A stretch of DNA of 62,003 bases from Hyphomonadaceae bacterium. Lineage in GTDB: Bacteria > Pseudomonadota > Alphaproteobacteria > Caulobacterales > Aquidulcibacteraceae. The position numbers and the translations under genes are program-made. The stretch spans positions 1 through 62,003 of the forward strand of contig JAEUMT010000011.1 of assembly GCA_016791365.1 (NCBI GenBank), in the 5' to 3' direction. The notes under the pieces are model-generated. The model was not told the origin of the DNA, searched no databases, and saw nothing but the letters and a program-made list of their open reading frames with translations. Shown here piece after piece: positions 38,281-54,608 of this stretch; position 1 is the stretch's first letter; each line of letters begins with the position of its first letter.

Positions 38281-39579
38281 ATGACCCAAACAGCCGGCAA
38301 TGCCGCTGAACGCGACCGTTTTTTCGAAGCTTCAGTGGAGCGGGCCGATCCGGATATCGCATCCGCGATCGCCGATGAGCTCGGGCGCCAGAAGAAGCAG
38401 ATCGAACTGATCGCGTCGGAGAACATCGTCTCGAAGGCGGTGTTGCAGGCGCAGGGCTCGGTGCTGACGAACAAGTACGCGGAAGGGTATCCGGGGCGGC
38501 GCTATTACGGCGGCTGCGAGTTTGTTGATGAGGTGGAGCGGCTGGCGATCGATCGCGCCAAGCGGCTCTTCGATTGCAAGTTCGCGAACGTGCAGCCGCA
38601 CTCTGGCGCCAATGCGAACCAGGCCGTGTTCTTCGCGCTGCTGCAGCCGGGCGACAAGTTTTTGGGAATGGACCTCGCATGTGGCGGCCACCTCACGCAC
38701 GGCTCGCCGGTGAACATCTCGGGCAAGTGGTTCAATCCGGTCGCGTATGGCGTGCGCGAGGACAATCACCTGATTGACATGGACGAAGTCGCGACGATTG
38801 CGCGCCGTGAGCGTCCGAAGCTGATTTTGGCGGGCGCCAGCGCCTATTCGCGGCAGATCGATTTCAAGCGTTTCCGCGAGATCGCCGATGAAGTCGGCGC
38901 GCTGTTGATGGTGGATATGGCGCACTATGCGGGGCTGGTCGCAGGCGGCGTCTATCAATCGCCGCTGCCGCACGCGCACGTGGTGACGACGACGACGCAC
39001 AAGACGCTGCGCGGTCCGCGCGGCGGTATGATCCTCTCGAATGACGAGGATATCGGCAAGAAGATCAATTCGGCTGTCTTCCCAGGCTTGCAGGGCGGCC
39101 CGCTGATGCATGTGATCGCGGCGAAGGCGGTGAGCTTTGGTGAGGCGCTGCAGCCTGAGTTTAGGCTCTATGCGCAGCGCACGCTGGACAACGCGAAGGC
39201 GCTGGCGGCGCGGCTGGTGGAGAACGGTCTGGCCGTCGTTTCAGGCGGGACCGACAGCCATTTGATGCTGGTCGATCTCAGACCGAAGAAGGTGACGGGC
39301 AAGGCCGGTGAGCAAACGCTCGAGCGCGCACTGATTACGACGAACAAGAACGGCATTCCGTTCGATCCGGAAAAGCCGATGGTGACGTCTGGCATCCGGC
39401 TGGGCTCACCGGCGTGCACGACGCGTGGGTTCGGGCCCGCGGAATTCAGGCAAGTGGCCGATCTGATTTGCGAAGTGCTGGACGGCTATGCCAAGTCGAA
39501 CGGCGACAATTCGGCGACCGAGGCCGCGGTGGCTGCAAAGGTGGAACAGCTAACCGCACGTTTTCCGATTTATGGCTGA
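38281..39579 (+). CDS. glyA: Serine hydroxymethyltransferase
   Basis: 432 residues, full length. GlyA interconverts serine and glycine with tetrahydrofolate. Signatures: [11 protein letters not shown] near residue 40, [38 protein letters not shown]-type segment ([14 protein letters not shown]) and the PLP lysine in [14 protein letters not shown]. In related genomes nrdR follows directly; here an S23 cassette lies between them, beginning five bases after the glyA stop. Confidence 0.96.
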
Positions 39580-39583
39580 ACGA

Positions 39584-39614
39584 GGGAATTGGGAGTAGGG
39601 AATGGGGAATGGGG
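39584..39614 (+). repeat. Left inverted end: G-rich heptamer array
   Basis: About four tandem copies of GGGAATN (variants GGGAATT, GGGAGTA, GGGAATG, GGGAATG). Runs of three or four G recur every seven bases, so a G-quadruplex is possible on this strand. The array ends in GGGGAG, which also serves as the likely ribosome binding site of the S23 gene. Confidence 0.75.
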
Positions 39615-39624
39615 AGAAGCCAAG

Positions 39625-40002
39625 ATGGGCATCCAATCCTACCGCGATCTGAATGTCTGGCAGGAGGCGATGGCCATCGCTGAGGCGGTGTACCTGCTGA
39701 CAAGGTCCTTCCCACAGTCTGAGTTGTACGGCCTGACGACGCAGATGCGTCGTGCATCGGTGTCCATTGCGGCGAACGTGGCGGAGGGCAATGGCCGCGA
39801 GACCTCAGGCGCATATGTCCAGTTTCTTAGAATTTCACAGGGCTCCTTGAAGGAGCTTGAGACACATCTGTTCTTGGCGCAGCGCGTTGATTTGGCGACC
39901 ACCGAACAGGTCGAGCCGATCTTGGATGAATGCGATAAGCTAGGTCGGATGTTGCGCGCTTTGATTCGTGCAATTCAGGAAAAGACCCGACGTGAGGAAT
40001 AG
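39625..40002 (+). CDS. Four-helix-bundle protein, S23/IVP family
   Basis: 125 residues. Family features: YRDLNVWQEAMAIAEAVYLLT (helix 1), LYGLTTQMRRASVSIAANVAEG (helix 2, the most conserved), QFLRISQGSLKELETHLFLA (helix 3) and the final DECDKLGRMLRALIRAI. The family comes from intervening sequences in 23S rRNA genes of some bacteria and includes relatives of Avd proteins of diversity-generating retroelements. Here it stands alone between two protein genes. ATG 39625 follows GGGGAG of the left repeat by about nine bases. Confidence 0.9.
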   Translation: MGIQSYRDLNVWQEAMAIAEAVYLLTRSFPQSELYGLTTQMRRASVSIAANVAEGNGRETSGAYVQFLRISQGSLKELETHLFLAQRVDLATTEQVEPILDECDKLGRMLRALIRAIQEKTRREE

Positions 40003-40033
40003 TCCCATTCCCTATTCCCCACTCCCCATTGCC
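40003..40033 (-). repeat. Right inverted end: G-rich heptamer array
   Basis: Read on the minus strand: GGCAATGGGGAGTGGGGAAT, then AGGGAATGGGA. The same seven-base period as the left end in opposite orientation. It starts on the base after the S23 stop codon. Confidence 0.75.
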
Positions 40034-40054
40034 TGCGAGCGATAGCGAGCCAGA

Positions 40055-40519
40055 ATGCGCTGCCCGTTTTGTCAGAACGAAGACACCCAAGTGAAAGACA
40101 GCCGTCCCACCGAGGACGGCGCCGCGATCCGCCGTCGCCGGCAGTGCGATAAGTGCGGGTCGCGCTTCACGACGTTTGAGCGGGTGCAGTTGCGTGACCT
40201 TGTGGTGTTGAAGCGTTCAGGGCGGCGGGTGCCGTTCGATCGCGATAAGCTCGCGCGTTCGCTTGCCATCGCGTTGCGCAAGCGGCCGATTGAGCAGGAT
40301 CAGATCGAGCAGATGATTTCCGGGATCGTGCGCAAGCTGGAGAGTTCAGGCGAGAGCGAGATCACGTCGGAGACGATCGGGGAGATGGTCATGGAGGCGC
40401 TGCGAAATTTGGATTCCGTGGCCTATGTTCGCTACGCATCGGTTTACAAGGACTTCTCCGAAGCCAGCGATTTCGCGGATTTCATCGAAGAGTCGGACAA
40501 GTCCGGCAAGCGGGGCTGA
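40055..40519 (+). CDS. nrdR: Transcriptional repressor NrdR
   Basis: 154 residues. NrdR represses ribonucleotide reductase genes, sensing ATP/dATP. The zinc ribbon is [15 protein letters not shown] with a second pair in CDKCGSRF; the ATP-cone follows ([20 protein letters not shown]). The C-terminal segment ends FADFIEE. The start at 40055 gives the family N-terminus MRCPFC. It usually follows glyA directly in alphaproteobacteria. Confidence 0.96.
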
Positions 40520-52121: not shown

Positions 52122-54608
52122 ATGGGCACGTGGTCACCGGGCTCGGGCCCAACGACGGGCGATGACACCTACACAGGGACCACCGCGAACGAATCCGCGG
52201 CGGGCGGCGACGGCAATGACACGATCATTGGCGGCGGCGGCGAAGACTTCCTGCAAGGCGGCAATGGCGCCGATACGTTTGTCATCAACGCGACCAGCCA
52301 GCTTAGCGCCGACGACACCTATCTCGGCGATGCGGGCACGGACACGATGCTGCTCACTGCTGCCGGCACGTACAATTTCGCCGGCGTGGGGCTCAATCAG
52401 ATCGAGATACTCACGTTCACGCAGAACATCACCGCGAACATCGTTCAAGATGATTTCAATCTGCCGCAGAGCGATTTGACGATTGACGGCCAAGGCCGGA
52501 CGGCGACGTTCAACTTTCAGGTCGCCAACGGGTTTGGCGTAAGCGCGGGCGGTTGGCTGTTCACCAACGGCAACTTCACCATCAATATCTTTGGCGGGTC
52601 CGGTGATGACACTCTGCGCGGCACCAATGTCGCCGACACCATAACAGGCGGCAACGGGTTCGATCAGATCCACGGCGGCGGCGGCGTCGACACCCTGATC
52701 GGCGGCGCCGGAAACGATATCTATTTTCTGAATTCGGCCACGGACGCCCAGGACATCATCATCGAAGCCGCAAACGGCGGAGACCACGACAAGATCGAGA
52801 CGAACTTCAGTTTCAGCATCGCCGACTACGCCACAATCGAGGACCTGGAGGTCAATTCCAGCGTCGCCGTGACCGTGACCGGCAACACCCTCAACAACAT
52901 CCTCATCGGCGATTTTGGCGCCGACACGCTCAACGGCGGCTTCGGCGACGATTCACTGTTCGGCGGCAACGCCAGCGATACGCTGGTGGGCGGCGCCGGC
53001 AACGACACTTACAACATCAGTGGCGGCGGCATCGACAACATCGTCGAGGCGGCGGGCGAGGGCACGGACGTGGTGTCGCTCAACATGGGCACGGCGGGCG
53101 GGATCACCACGTACTCGCTGGCGGCGGTCGCGAACGTCGAGAACATCAATTATTCGTCGATCAACACGACCGGCACGCGCACGATCACGGGCAACAGCAT
53201 CAACAACGTGATCACCGCCAACGGCCTTGGCACCACTGACACGATCGACGGCGGGGCTGGCGATGACACGATGTCGGGCGGCGGCGGGGCGGACACGTAC
53301 GTCGTCGATAGTTACGGCGATGTGGTGATTGAAACGCTGGCGGGCACGACGGCGCCCGCGATCGACACGATCCGCACCGCGCTCAACTCCTACACGCTCT
53401 CGAACAGCGCCAGCAGTCTGGTGGAGAATCTCGTCTATACGGGCAGCGGCAGCTTCACCGGTGTGGGCAACGATCTCGTCAACATCATCACCGGCGGCGG
53501 CGGCGACGATATGTTGGATGGCGGCATTGGCGCCGATCGCCTTGATGGCGGCGGCGGCAACGACACCATCATGTGGGATGCGGCTGATACGCAACTCACC
53601 GGCGGCGCCGGCAACGATTTGCTCGTCTTCACGAGCGGCGCCGCGCCGACATCGTTCAATCTTGTGGCGCAGGGCTTTGAGGCGGCCGAAGGCCGCTTCA
53701 CCGATACGGGCGCCAATGCCTGGGCGACGCGTGTCGATCGTTACGACAGCCTGTGGCGCATGGATATCTCGACGATTGTAAACGATAACGGCACGCGCGA
53801 GATCACCGATTACGATCAGGCCAATGCGGCAAGCTGGGCAGGTTTTCTTGCGCGCGAGGATTCACTCGGCCGCACGACGGAGACGGTGCTGACGTATGAT
53901 GCCGGCGGCCGCGACACGACAACGTTCGACGTCGATAGTTCGGTGTTCTGGTCGAGCTTCGTCACGCGGACCGACGCACTCGACCGCACGACCGAGACGC
54001 TGTTGATCCATGATGACGGCACGCGCGATACGACCAATTTCGACGGCGATAGCTCTCAATTCTGGACAAGTTTCGTCACGCGTCGCGATGGACTGGGGCG
54101 CACGACGGAAAGCCTGCTGATCCACGATGACGGCGTGCGCGACACGACGAACTATGATGCGGACGAGACGCAATTCTGGACCAGCTTCGTCACGCGGCGC
54201 GATGCGCTGGGCAATACGACCGAGAGCCTGCTCATCCATGACGACGGGACGCGCGATACGACCAATTACGATGGCGACAACTCACAGTTCTGGACGAGCT
54301 TCGTCACGCGCCGGGACTCAGCGGGGCGTTCGACCGAAAGCCTGCTCATTCATGATGACGGCACGCGGGACACAACGAACTTCGATCCGGAGAACGCGGT
54401 GTTCTGGGAGAGCTTCGTCACGCGCCGCGACGCGCTTGGCAGGACGACCGACACGTTGCTCGTCTATGATGATGGCCGGCAGGACTCCACCGATTATGAC
54501 GAAGCCAACGTCAATGATTGGAGCAACGTGGTCTATCGCTACGACGACAACGGCGTGCTTTATCAGACCATCACGACCTACGATGACGGACAGATCATTA
54601 TAATTTGA
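52122..54608 (+). CDS. Large RTX calcium-binding protein with C-terminal 38-residue repeats
   Basis: 828 residues, no signal peptide. Five RTX blocks with GGxGxDxxx units: residues ~28-52, ~157-204 (GGAGNDIY), ~262-300, ~367-396 and ~456-503. Such repeats bind calcium and usually mark type I secreted proteins. From residue ~551 to the end is a tandem array of about seven 38-residue units. The array ends in QIIII, a hydrophobic tail that suits a type I secretion signal. GGGGGA precedes the start. No transporter genes are adjacent. Function unknown. Confidence 0.85.
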   Translation: MGTWSPGSGPTTGDDTYTGTTANESAAGGDGNDTIIGGGGEDFLQGGNGADTFVINATSQLSADDTYLGDAGTDTMLLTAAGTYNFAGVGLNQIEILTFTQNITANIVQDDFNLPQSDLTIDGQGRTATFNFQVANGFGVSAGGWLFTNGNFTINIFGGSGDDTLRGTNVADTITGGNGFDQIHGGGGVDTLIGGAGNDIYFLNSATDAQDIIIEAANGGDHDKIETNFSFSIADYATIEDLEVNSSVAVTVTGNTLNNILIGDFGADTLNGGFGDDSLFGGNASDTLVGGAGNDTYNISGGGIDNIVEAAGEGTDVVSLNMGTAGGITTYSLAAVANVENINYSSINTTGTRTITGNSINNVITANGLGTTDTIDGGAGDDTMSGGGGADTYVVDSYGDVVIETLAGTTAPAIDTIRTALNSYTLSNSASSLVENLVYTGSGSFTGVGNDLVNIITGGGGDDMLDGGIGADRLDGGGGNDTIMWDAADTQLTGGAGNDLLVFTSGAAPTSFNLVAQGFEAAEGRFTDTGANAWATRVDRYDSLWRMDISTIVNDNGTREITDYDQANAASWAGFLAREDSLGRTTETVLTYDAGGRDTTTFDVDSSVFWSSFVTRTDALDRTTETLLIHDDGTRDTTNFDGDSSQFWTSFVTRRDGLGRTTESLLIHDDGVRDTTNYDADETQFWTSFVTRRDALGNTTESLLIHDDGTRDTTNYDGDNSQFWTSFVTRRDSAGRSTESLLIHDDGTRDTTNFDPENAVFWESFVTRRDALGRTTDTLLVYDDGRQDSTDYDEANVNDWSNVVYRYDDNGVLYQTITTYDDGQIIII
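53775..54605 (+). repeat. Tandem 114-bp (38-residue) coding repeat in RTX gene
   Basis: About seven copies plus a partial one. A unit reads LLIHDDGTRDTTNFD followed by a variable acidic stretch, then FWTSFVTRRD and LGRTTE. Outer copies are more divergent than central copies 3-5, which suggests recent expansion of the centre. The D..GR.T....DDG pattern faintly resembles YD repeats. Confidence 0.85.

Follow-up and report, generated by a model that had tools for sequence, protein, structure and literature searches.

The question raised by this locus is why a gene of the S23 / four-helix-bundle family, described as having no known function (PMC4990558), stands between glyA and nrdR, enclosed by opposite-facing arrays of a G-rich heptamer, in the window (the whole stretch of 62,003 nucleotides that was analysed; Table 1). 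On balance, the feature is probably a complete copy of a widespread mobile element of about 450 bp, here called the S23 element, moved and maintained by the mechanism proposed below.

Table 1. Positions in the window of the S23 gene, its arms and its neighbours
Feature	Position	Strand	Basis
glyA, upstream neighbour	38281..39579	+	profile search
Left arm (about five heptamers), coding strand G-rich	39583..39616	+	aligned core 39583-39613
GGGGAG within the left arm, probable ribosome binding site for S23	39611..39616	+	sequence; function inferred
S23 / four-helix-bundle gene, 125 aa	39625..40002	+	profile searches
Right arm (left arm inverted), coding strand C-rich	40004..40034	+	alignment
Short stretch TGCGAGCGATAGCGAGCCAGA between right arm and nrdR	40034..40054	+	site comparison
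nrdR, downstream neighbour	40055..40519	+	profile search

The coding sequence scored 123.2 bits against TIGR02436 (cut-off 24), which places it in the S23 / 23S_rRNA_IVP family, and 127.9 bits against PF05635 (cut-off 33.8). In the best alignment of the arms (39583-39613 with the inverted 40004-40034), 26 of 31 bases were identical, with a score of 42 compared to at most 28 in 2000 dinucleotide-preserving shuffles. GGGGAG (39611-39616) stands eight bases 5′ of the start codon (ATG, 39625), and the C-rich right arm follows the stop codon (40000-40002) from position 40004. The left arm reads GGGAATT GGGAGTA GGGAATG GGGAATG GGGAG and the right arm also contains GGCAATG and GGGAGTG, so that the unit is not strictly GGGAATN; apart from this variation, the sequence-only reading of the locus had described the gene, the inverted arrays and the position between glyA and nrdR accurately. 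GGGAAT is not enriched in the entire window (17 matches, 26 expected), so its special feature is its arrangement only. The arms are 390 bases apart and the S23 gene fills 378 of these, so that a transposase cannot fit inside, in agreement with the earlier description of a single-gene cassette with inverted heptamer ends and without a transposase. An Rfam search of 39400-40200 gave no match up to an E value of 1. Elsewhere in the window, a 114-bp tandem repeat of 5.4 copies is located at 53859-54476.

The upstream flank of each S23 gene was aligned to the reverse complement of its downstream flank. The genome to which the window belongs (G000; 3.46 Mb, 65 contigs) contains three S23 genes including the window copy, and the other two also have inverted heptamer arms, of the GGGACTN and RGAARTC types. 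S23 was present in 17 of the 41 genomes searched within the genus and order and in 50 of 299 genomes sampled from the phylum; in a scan of named genomes, at least 554 of at least 585 stretches encoded S23 relatives, the best 80 of which were kept. The initial flank sample comprised 139 S23 genes, 135 of them with flanks of sufficient length, of which 114 scored at least 24 and 102 at least 30, and the highest score in mononucleotide shuffles, run on the first 31 loci, was 21. After removal of three duplicates and of the genes with short flanks, matching inverted flanks (score of at least 24) were found for 106 of 132 S23 genes, compared to 6 of 255 control ORFs taken from those loci, where all control scores stayed below 30. 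An element's own downstream flank was the best of the 132 for 41 elements and among the top five for 88. Additional S23 genes with weaker family scores passed in 13 of 20 cases. The sequence-only reading had proposed to inspect the flanks of other S23 genes, and matching inverted flanks are there for 106 of the 132; the remaining 26 have no recognisable inverted flanks, and 7 of the 20 in the weaker sample missed the threshold. At one of these seven, L308, the S23 frame reads through its right arm. The two outcomes named in advance as speaking against the reading, a site fixed in all relatives and S23 genes elsewhere that have no repeats, do not hold as a rule.

Passing loci include members of the Cyanobacteria, Acidobacteria, Planctomycetes, Chloroflexi, Nitrospirae and Ca. 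Kaiserbacteria, and some loci of the same groups fail (for example L069, L124 and L127). No S23 match was found among 50,697 phage records, and a 23S rRNA motif had no match in 306 loci. A scan for other gene cargo between arms found none; the loci scanned were mostly selected for S23, so this absence is weak evidence. The pattern is thus more general than first described: the heptamer arrays are best described as the ends of a mobile S23 element present across bacteria, of which the window copy is one case. A different arrangement was seen at L326 (G231 C1:2745040-2748351), where an S23 gene lies between direct repeats of about 60 bp (TCTCGTACCGCGTCCCTAGT...) and not between inverted arrays.

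Arm architecture was analysed in an enlarged set of 157 elements with a usable consensus, to which 26 loci of one genus had been added and for which the flanks had been widened. Among the 133 elements that scored at least 28, the best period (4 to 13 tested) was 7 in 122 and 8 in 11, with no other period represented; 75 of the 133 left arms and 89 of the 133 right arms had 4 or 5 units, and G exceeded C on the coding strand in every left arm (133/133). A scan of all loci for inverted pairs of period 7 or 8 showed the G-rich strand pointing inward in 138 of 159 pairs and outward in 21, the latter mostly from loci with several arrays. The sequence of the unit is far less constant. The 157 elements gave 74 different consensus units, the commonest of which, GGCAGTA, accounts for 30 elements, mostly at one site; GGGAATN, earlier taken to be the unit, therefore gives way to the period as the fixed feature. 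GGGAATC was rejected as a signature, being present in 3 of the 299 genomes sampled from the phylum, of which two have S23. The 407,766 bases scanned in the window's own genome contained 20 period-7 arrays, and inverted pairs occurred at period 7 (six) and at its double, 14 (two), and at no other period; periods 6, 9 and 12 also form arrays there, without inverted pairs. Permutation of unit order in 60 elements gave one at p ≤ 0.05, with the observed value above the null mean in 50 of 60; the null was confined to the pre-selected block and thereby biased, and this result is given no weight. The comparisons of period, polarity and unit show that, as far as can be read from sequence, the arms vary between elements and that period, polarity and left-right matching are kept.

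Whole-element insertion can be followed on cyanobacterial plasmids, where plasmids 91-97% identical differ by the presence of an S23 element. At a trb site of conjugative plasmids (about 97% identical), four empty plasmids (L401-L404) carry AAAAAGTAATTAACAA, and plasmid C of Trichormus variabilis (L216) carries AAAAAGTAAT-[423 bp]-GTAATTAACAA, with a 5-bp duplication, GTAAT. Scytonema NIES-4073 (L406) has the same insertion, again with GTAAT duplicated and with a shorter left arm; the left arms of L216 (5 units) and L406 (3 units) differ by two heptamers, which indicates that the number of units slips. The same trb site is occupied in L405 by a derived copy without most of the gene and in L410 by a bare hairpin. 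At a second site, in Nostoc ATCC 53789, pNsp_a has TTCTA-[413 bp]-TTCTA and pNsp_c, about 96% identical, a single TTCTA. TTCTA flanks this site on both sides in L413 and L424, with one base off in L423, and the unoccupied site has a single TTCTA in L420 and L418 and is also empty in L419 and L422. The trb, second-site and Aulosira elements are 78-82% identical to each other, and their flanks showed no similarity between any pair at an E value of 1e-3. A clean 5-bp target duplication was seen at 2 of the 6 plasmid sites compared. No clear one was found at the integrase site, at sites T and N, or at site Q, where only ATG is common to both sides and a long extra stretch lies beyond the right arm. 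For the flanks of L063, no plasmid record covered 80% of the query. Two further plasmid loci differ in detail: L424 (Nostoc N6 plasmid pNPM1) has a second right-arm-like array inside the S23 element at 690-1345, possibly a nested copy, and in L414 (Nostoc edaphicum pNe_5) the element lies between nrdB and nrdA with S23 opposite to the direction of nrd.

The glyA-nrdR gap was readable in 21 of the 25 genus genomes searched. It is empty in 9 of the 21, holds an S23 gene in 2 (G000, and G008 with an internal deletion) and holds arrays without an intact S23 in 8, one of which, G022, has an apparent remnant of the S23 end. Non-heptamer inserts were present in 2 of the 21, L141 (G003) and L153 (G023). 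The empty site that the earlier reading had suggested looking for thus exists in relatives, and the gap is a recurrent site. Stretches resembling TGCGAGCGATAGCGAGCCAGA adjoin the S23-less arrays in G017, G005 and G018. No target duplication was read at this site, since the alleles could not be aligned to the exact junction. A short loop (CGCGACTC, C or none, GCTTA) is common to G001, G010, G017, G005 and G018, and is enclosed by GGGATTN-like arms in G001, G010 and G017 and by GGCARTN-like arms in G005 and G018. We read this as a change of class by both arms together, in place, with the direction and the steps inferred.

The pip-rodA junction, compared in 23 genus genomes, provides a second case. 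In 6 of the 23 the convergent stop codons stand back to back (TGGTAG|CTACCA or TGGTAA|TTACCA). G007 and G013 carry one S23 subfamily with GGTGTCA arms, decayed in G013, and G010 and G001 carry an S23 with GGGACTA arms that is about 32% identical to that subfamily. Each subfamily has its own heptamer class, which argues that gene and arms go together, and the GGTGTCA-type element also occupies a second site, in G020 and G022. The pip-rodA junction holds bare arrays of two other unit classes in G017, G018 and G014; a few other bases are present in 3 of the 23, and a different neighbour or an unclear end in 6. A target duplication was looked for at pip-rodA and none was visible. In G019 (L382), a different, non-heptamer palindrome follows the pip stop codon, and back-to-back stop codons may therefore attract several hairpin elements. 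These sites and the plasmids show, at the level of sequence comparison, an arm-gene-arm unit inserting whole into intergenic junctions, conjugative plasmids included, and copies that also decay, with gene-less hairpins at the same sites in relatives. Mobility, previously an inference, is upheld by plasmids with and without the element, by two 5-bp duplications, by the empty glyA-nrdR gaps and by occupied and empty pip-rodA junctions.

Gene-less forms are also dispersed in the window's own genome, where bare inverted pairs about 15-100 nt apart lie in intergenic gaps. The heptamer pattern had 109 overlapping matches in this genome, S23 arms included, and the reversed control had none. A scan for pairs within 1,500 bp of each other (407,766 bases) found six, including two of the three known S23 elements; the one missed has weaker arms. 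On contig C46 (40198-40689; L181 198-689), hairpins lie either side of an ORF of about 60 codons that is unrelated to S23; this was considered as an arm pair with other cargo (40198/40651) and rejected, as the sequence reads better as two separate hairpins. G313, of genus g21, has 40 pattern matches and no S23 match in its genome, and the 19 array places inspected in it share one unit class (GCGAATG-type), mostly with a visible inverted partner. S23 had no match in any of the seven g21 genomes sampled, and the other six also have at least 6 pattern matches. The abundance of hairpins in G313 indicates that their persistence does not need S23 in the genome. Across the phylum, at least 6 pattern matches were counted, by hand, in 25 of 50 genomes with S23 and 21 of 249 without it; the Fisher odds ratio of 10.9 is taken as support only, because kinship was ignored and the reversed control was high in several genomes. 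Within the genus, the median was 35.5 matches in 14 genomes with S23 and 5 in 11 without (one-sided p 0.013), five further genomes that had not been searched for S23 being excluded. Arrays of the GGTRTC class outside S23 flanks were present in all four genomes whose S23 has such arms (4/4) and in 8 of 26 others, which include five genomes never searched for S23.

The arms of a given copy resemble each other more than those of its relatives at two sites. At nuoC-nuoD (n=36) the own-arm score was 42.6, compared to 23.0 between species (permutation p 0.0002), and at a second site (n=10) own arms again matched better than arms across species (p 0.0004). At the mmsB site (n=26), where the copies share one unit, own-arm and cross-arm scores were 69.0 and 67.2 (p 0.23). 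In a tree of the S23 protein, built on few columns and weakly resolved, with site groups assigned by motif labels, the nuoC-nuoD group required 7 changes versus 32 in shuffles, and the mmsB copies formed one clade (support 99). Own-arm matching at the sites together with a site-clustered tree suggests that the arms seem to turn over in place. Similarity of the S23 protein correlated with similarity of the heptamer (Mantel r 0.60, n=142), falling to 0.27 below 50% identity and to nothing below 40%, which could fit recognition of the arms as well as joint inheritance. To our knowledge, S23 contains no recognised nuclease motif. Each of the solved relatives 2gsc and 2rld contains five chains, and a toroidal homopentamer has been reported (PMC4990558); purely as a hypothesis, a ring of five and arms of 4-5 units could correspond to one subunit per heptamer.

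The mechanism that we propose starts from one S23 gene between inverted arms, mostly of 4-5 tandem heptamers and sometimes of octamers. Recognition of the arms would depend on their structure, namely the inverted repeat and the 7-nt spacing, and not on any set sequence. They would be bound in the 7-nt register by the S23 protein, whose solved relative forms a homopentameric ring, and a staggered-cutting recombinase supplied in trans would do the cutting. Arm slippage and copying from the opposite arm (template switching) would keep the arms alike. Once transcribed, the arms would base-pair and become accessible to RNase III, as has been reported for a 23S rRNA intervening sequence (IVS) that bears S23; this IVS would be the same kind of element within an rRNA gene. 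A stronger form of this proposal, which we offer tentatively and hold to be rather doubtful, is that S23 elements constitute a novel class of mobile DNA in which spacing and inverted symmetry, and not sequence, define the ends. In this form the S23 pentamer would follow the 7-nt register of the arms that flank its gene, so that the ends drift while both arms change together, and S23 IVSs and the heptamer hairpins of Xanthomonas and Nostoc would be members or remains of the class.

Two rival explanations concern what moves or maintains the element. A miniature element moved in trans by an ordinary transposase (of the DDE type with a 5-bp stagger, or of the RAYT type as for REPINs), with S23 as a passenger, is a possible account that we would not favour. 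It would explain the 5-bp duplications at two plasmid sites, the REPIN-like appearance of the bare inverted doublets (PMC3116915) and the persistence of hairpins without S23 in G313, but the arm sequence varies between elements, even within one genome, so that no shared terminal recognition sequence is seen. An element acting at the RNA level, with the arms kept for pairing in the transcript (an IVS-like RNase III stem) and the stem as what selection sees or what moves, seems to us unlikely. RNA pairing would spare G·U mismatches, but 600 arm mismatches, in a set that still contained the near-duplicate pairs L010/L067, L039/L073 and L047/L105, included 140 of the G·U type and 139 of the A·C type; the lack of an excess favours DNA-level copying or a DNA-hairpin constraint over upkeep by RNA pairing, and selection on the arms for RNA pairing was rejected. 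Copies also lie between convergent genes (pip-rodA) and against the direction of their neighbours (L414). In favour of the RNA-level alternative are the published S23-bearing IVS, which is bounded by a stem and cut by RNase III (PMC4990558), the predicted fold of the window transcript, in which the arms are paired (z -3.9), and the orientation of 36 of 36 nuoC-nuoD copies with the operon. Of the RNA-level action that the sequence-only reading had envisaged, possible in itself, the arm mismatches thus carry no trace.

That replication slippage built the arrays on the spot, around an S23 gene already in place and without any movement, appears very improbable. Empty sites, target duplications, the same element in unrelated flanks and two different gene-and-arm sets at pip-rodA all stand against it, despite the 5 and 3 units of L216 and L406 at one insertion and the reported commonness of heptamer runs in bacteria (PMC4692102, PMC4679880); local slippage is contradicted for the plasmid copies and might still account for how arms are maintained at old sites. 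Least credible of all is an element or regulator driven by G-quadruplexes, which the GGG runs of the window arms and the description of the Xanthomonas repeats as quadruplex-forming (PMC4692102) would recommend: only 18 of the 133 left arms contain four GGG runs and GGG is absent from 58, and a general quadruplex role, like the quadruplex-assisted insertion suggested earlier, was rejected.

The mobile S23 element that we prefer resembles several known systems. The Coxiella 23S IVS carries S23p, has a 28-bp inverted stem and a length of 428 nt, and is cut by RNase III; two or three tandem heptamers, varying between strains, precede the start of S23p (PMC4990558). It is like the S23 element in having one S23 ORF between complementary ends, in its heptamers and in its size (the trb element is 423 bp with a 5-bp duplication), and differs in that the window element lies between protein genes, outside rRNA; in the part of that source consulted, the heptamers are not extended to S23 genes generally. 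The window copy has complementary ends around an S23 ORF and is not located inside an rRNA gene, and for the latter reason is not classed as an IVS. By analogy with the tandem heptamers of the Coxiella IVS, S23-bearing IVSs may be the same element as that described here. The S23 element is also like REPINs and RAYTs in its dispersed, hairpin-forming inverted doublets between genes and in having a gene bordered by repeats of that kind, and differs in that its arms are tandem heptamers of free sequence and not a REP palindrome, and its gene encodes an S23 four-helix bundle and not a tyrosine transposase (PMC3116915); intergenic inverted doublets are present, but the 390 bases between the window arms hold S23 (378 bases) and no RAYT gene.

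G-rich heptamers (GGGAATC, GGGGA(C/T)T) have been described in Xanthomonas and Nostoc, where two Xanthomonas genomes have 70 and 75 convergent pairs and a Nostoc strain has few (PMC4692102). The convergent pairs have the inward polarity of S23 elements; the repeats are stated there to be generally not associated with mobile elements, and S23 is absent from the text of that source (PMC4692102). The accessory protein Avd (bAvd) of diversity-generating retroelements belongs to a related four-helix-bundle family (PF22296, E 2.6e-5, below its cut-off), but no reverse transcriptase lies between the window arms, and Avd was rejected as an identity for the window S23 (bAvd 25.1 bits, cut-off 40; DivGenRetAVD 23.3, cut-off 80; neighbours glyA and nrdR). 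The S23 element resembles MITEs in being short, in its inverted ends and in having no transposase gene. It differs in that it has no constant terminal sequence, its termini differing even within one genome, and in that it carries a conserved gene; target duplication occurs at some sites (5 bp at 2 of 6 plasmid sites, none at pip-rodA). In openly licensed PMC full text, the literature covered here (preprints and subscription journals lie outside it), no link of S23 genes in general with heptamer ends was found.

An S23-only mobile element with heptamer ends would provide one frame for S23-bearing IVSs, whose origin in rRNA was described as still unclear over 25 years after they were discovered (PMC4990558). 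The same frame is offered for S23-family genes in other settings, 18 of them reported from cas loci (PMC3936711) and others from rRNA insertions in CPR bacteria (PMC11270868), and it possibly covers the G-rich heptamer repeats discussed as quadruplexes (PMC4692102). The oddity of such an element would lie in its ends, which have a fixed period and a free sequence and still match each other.
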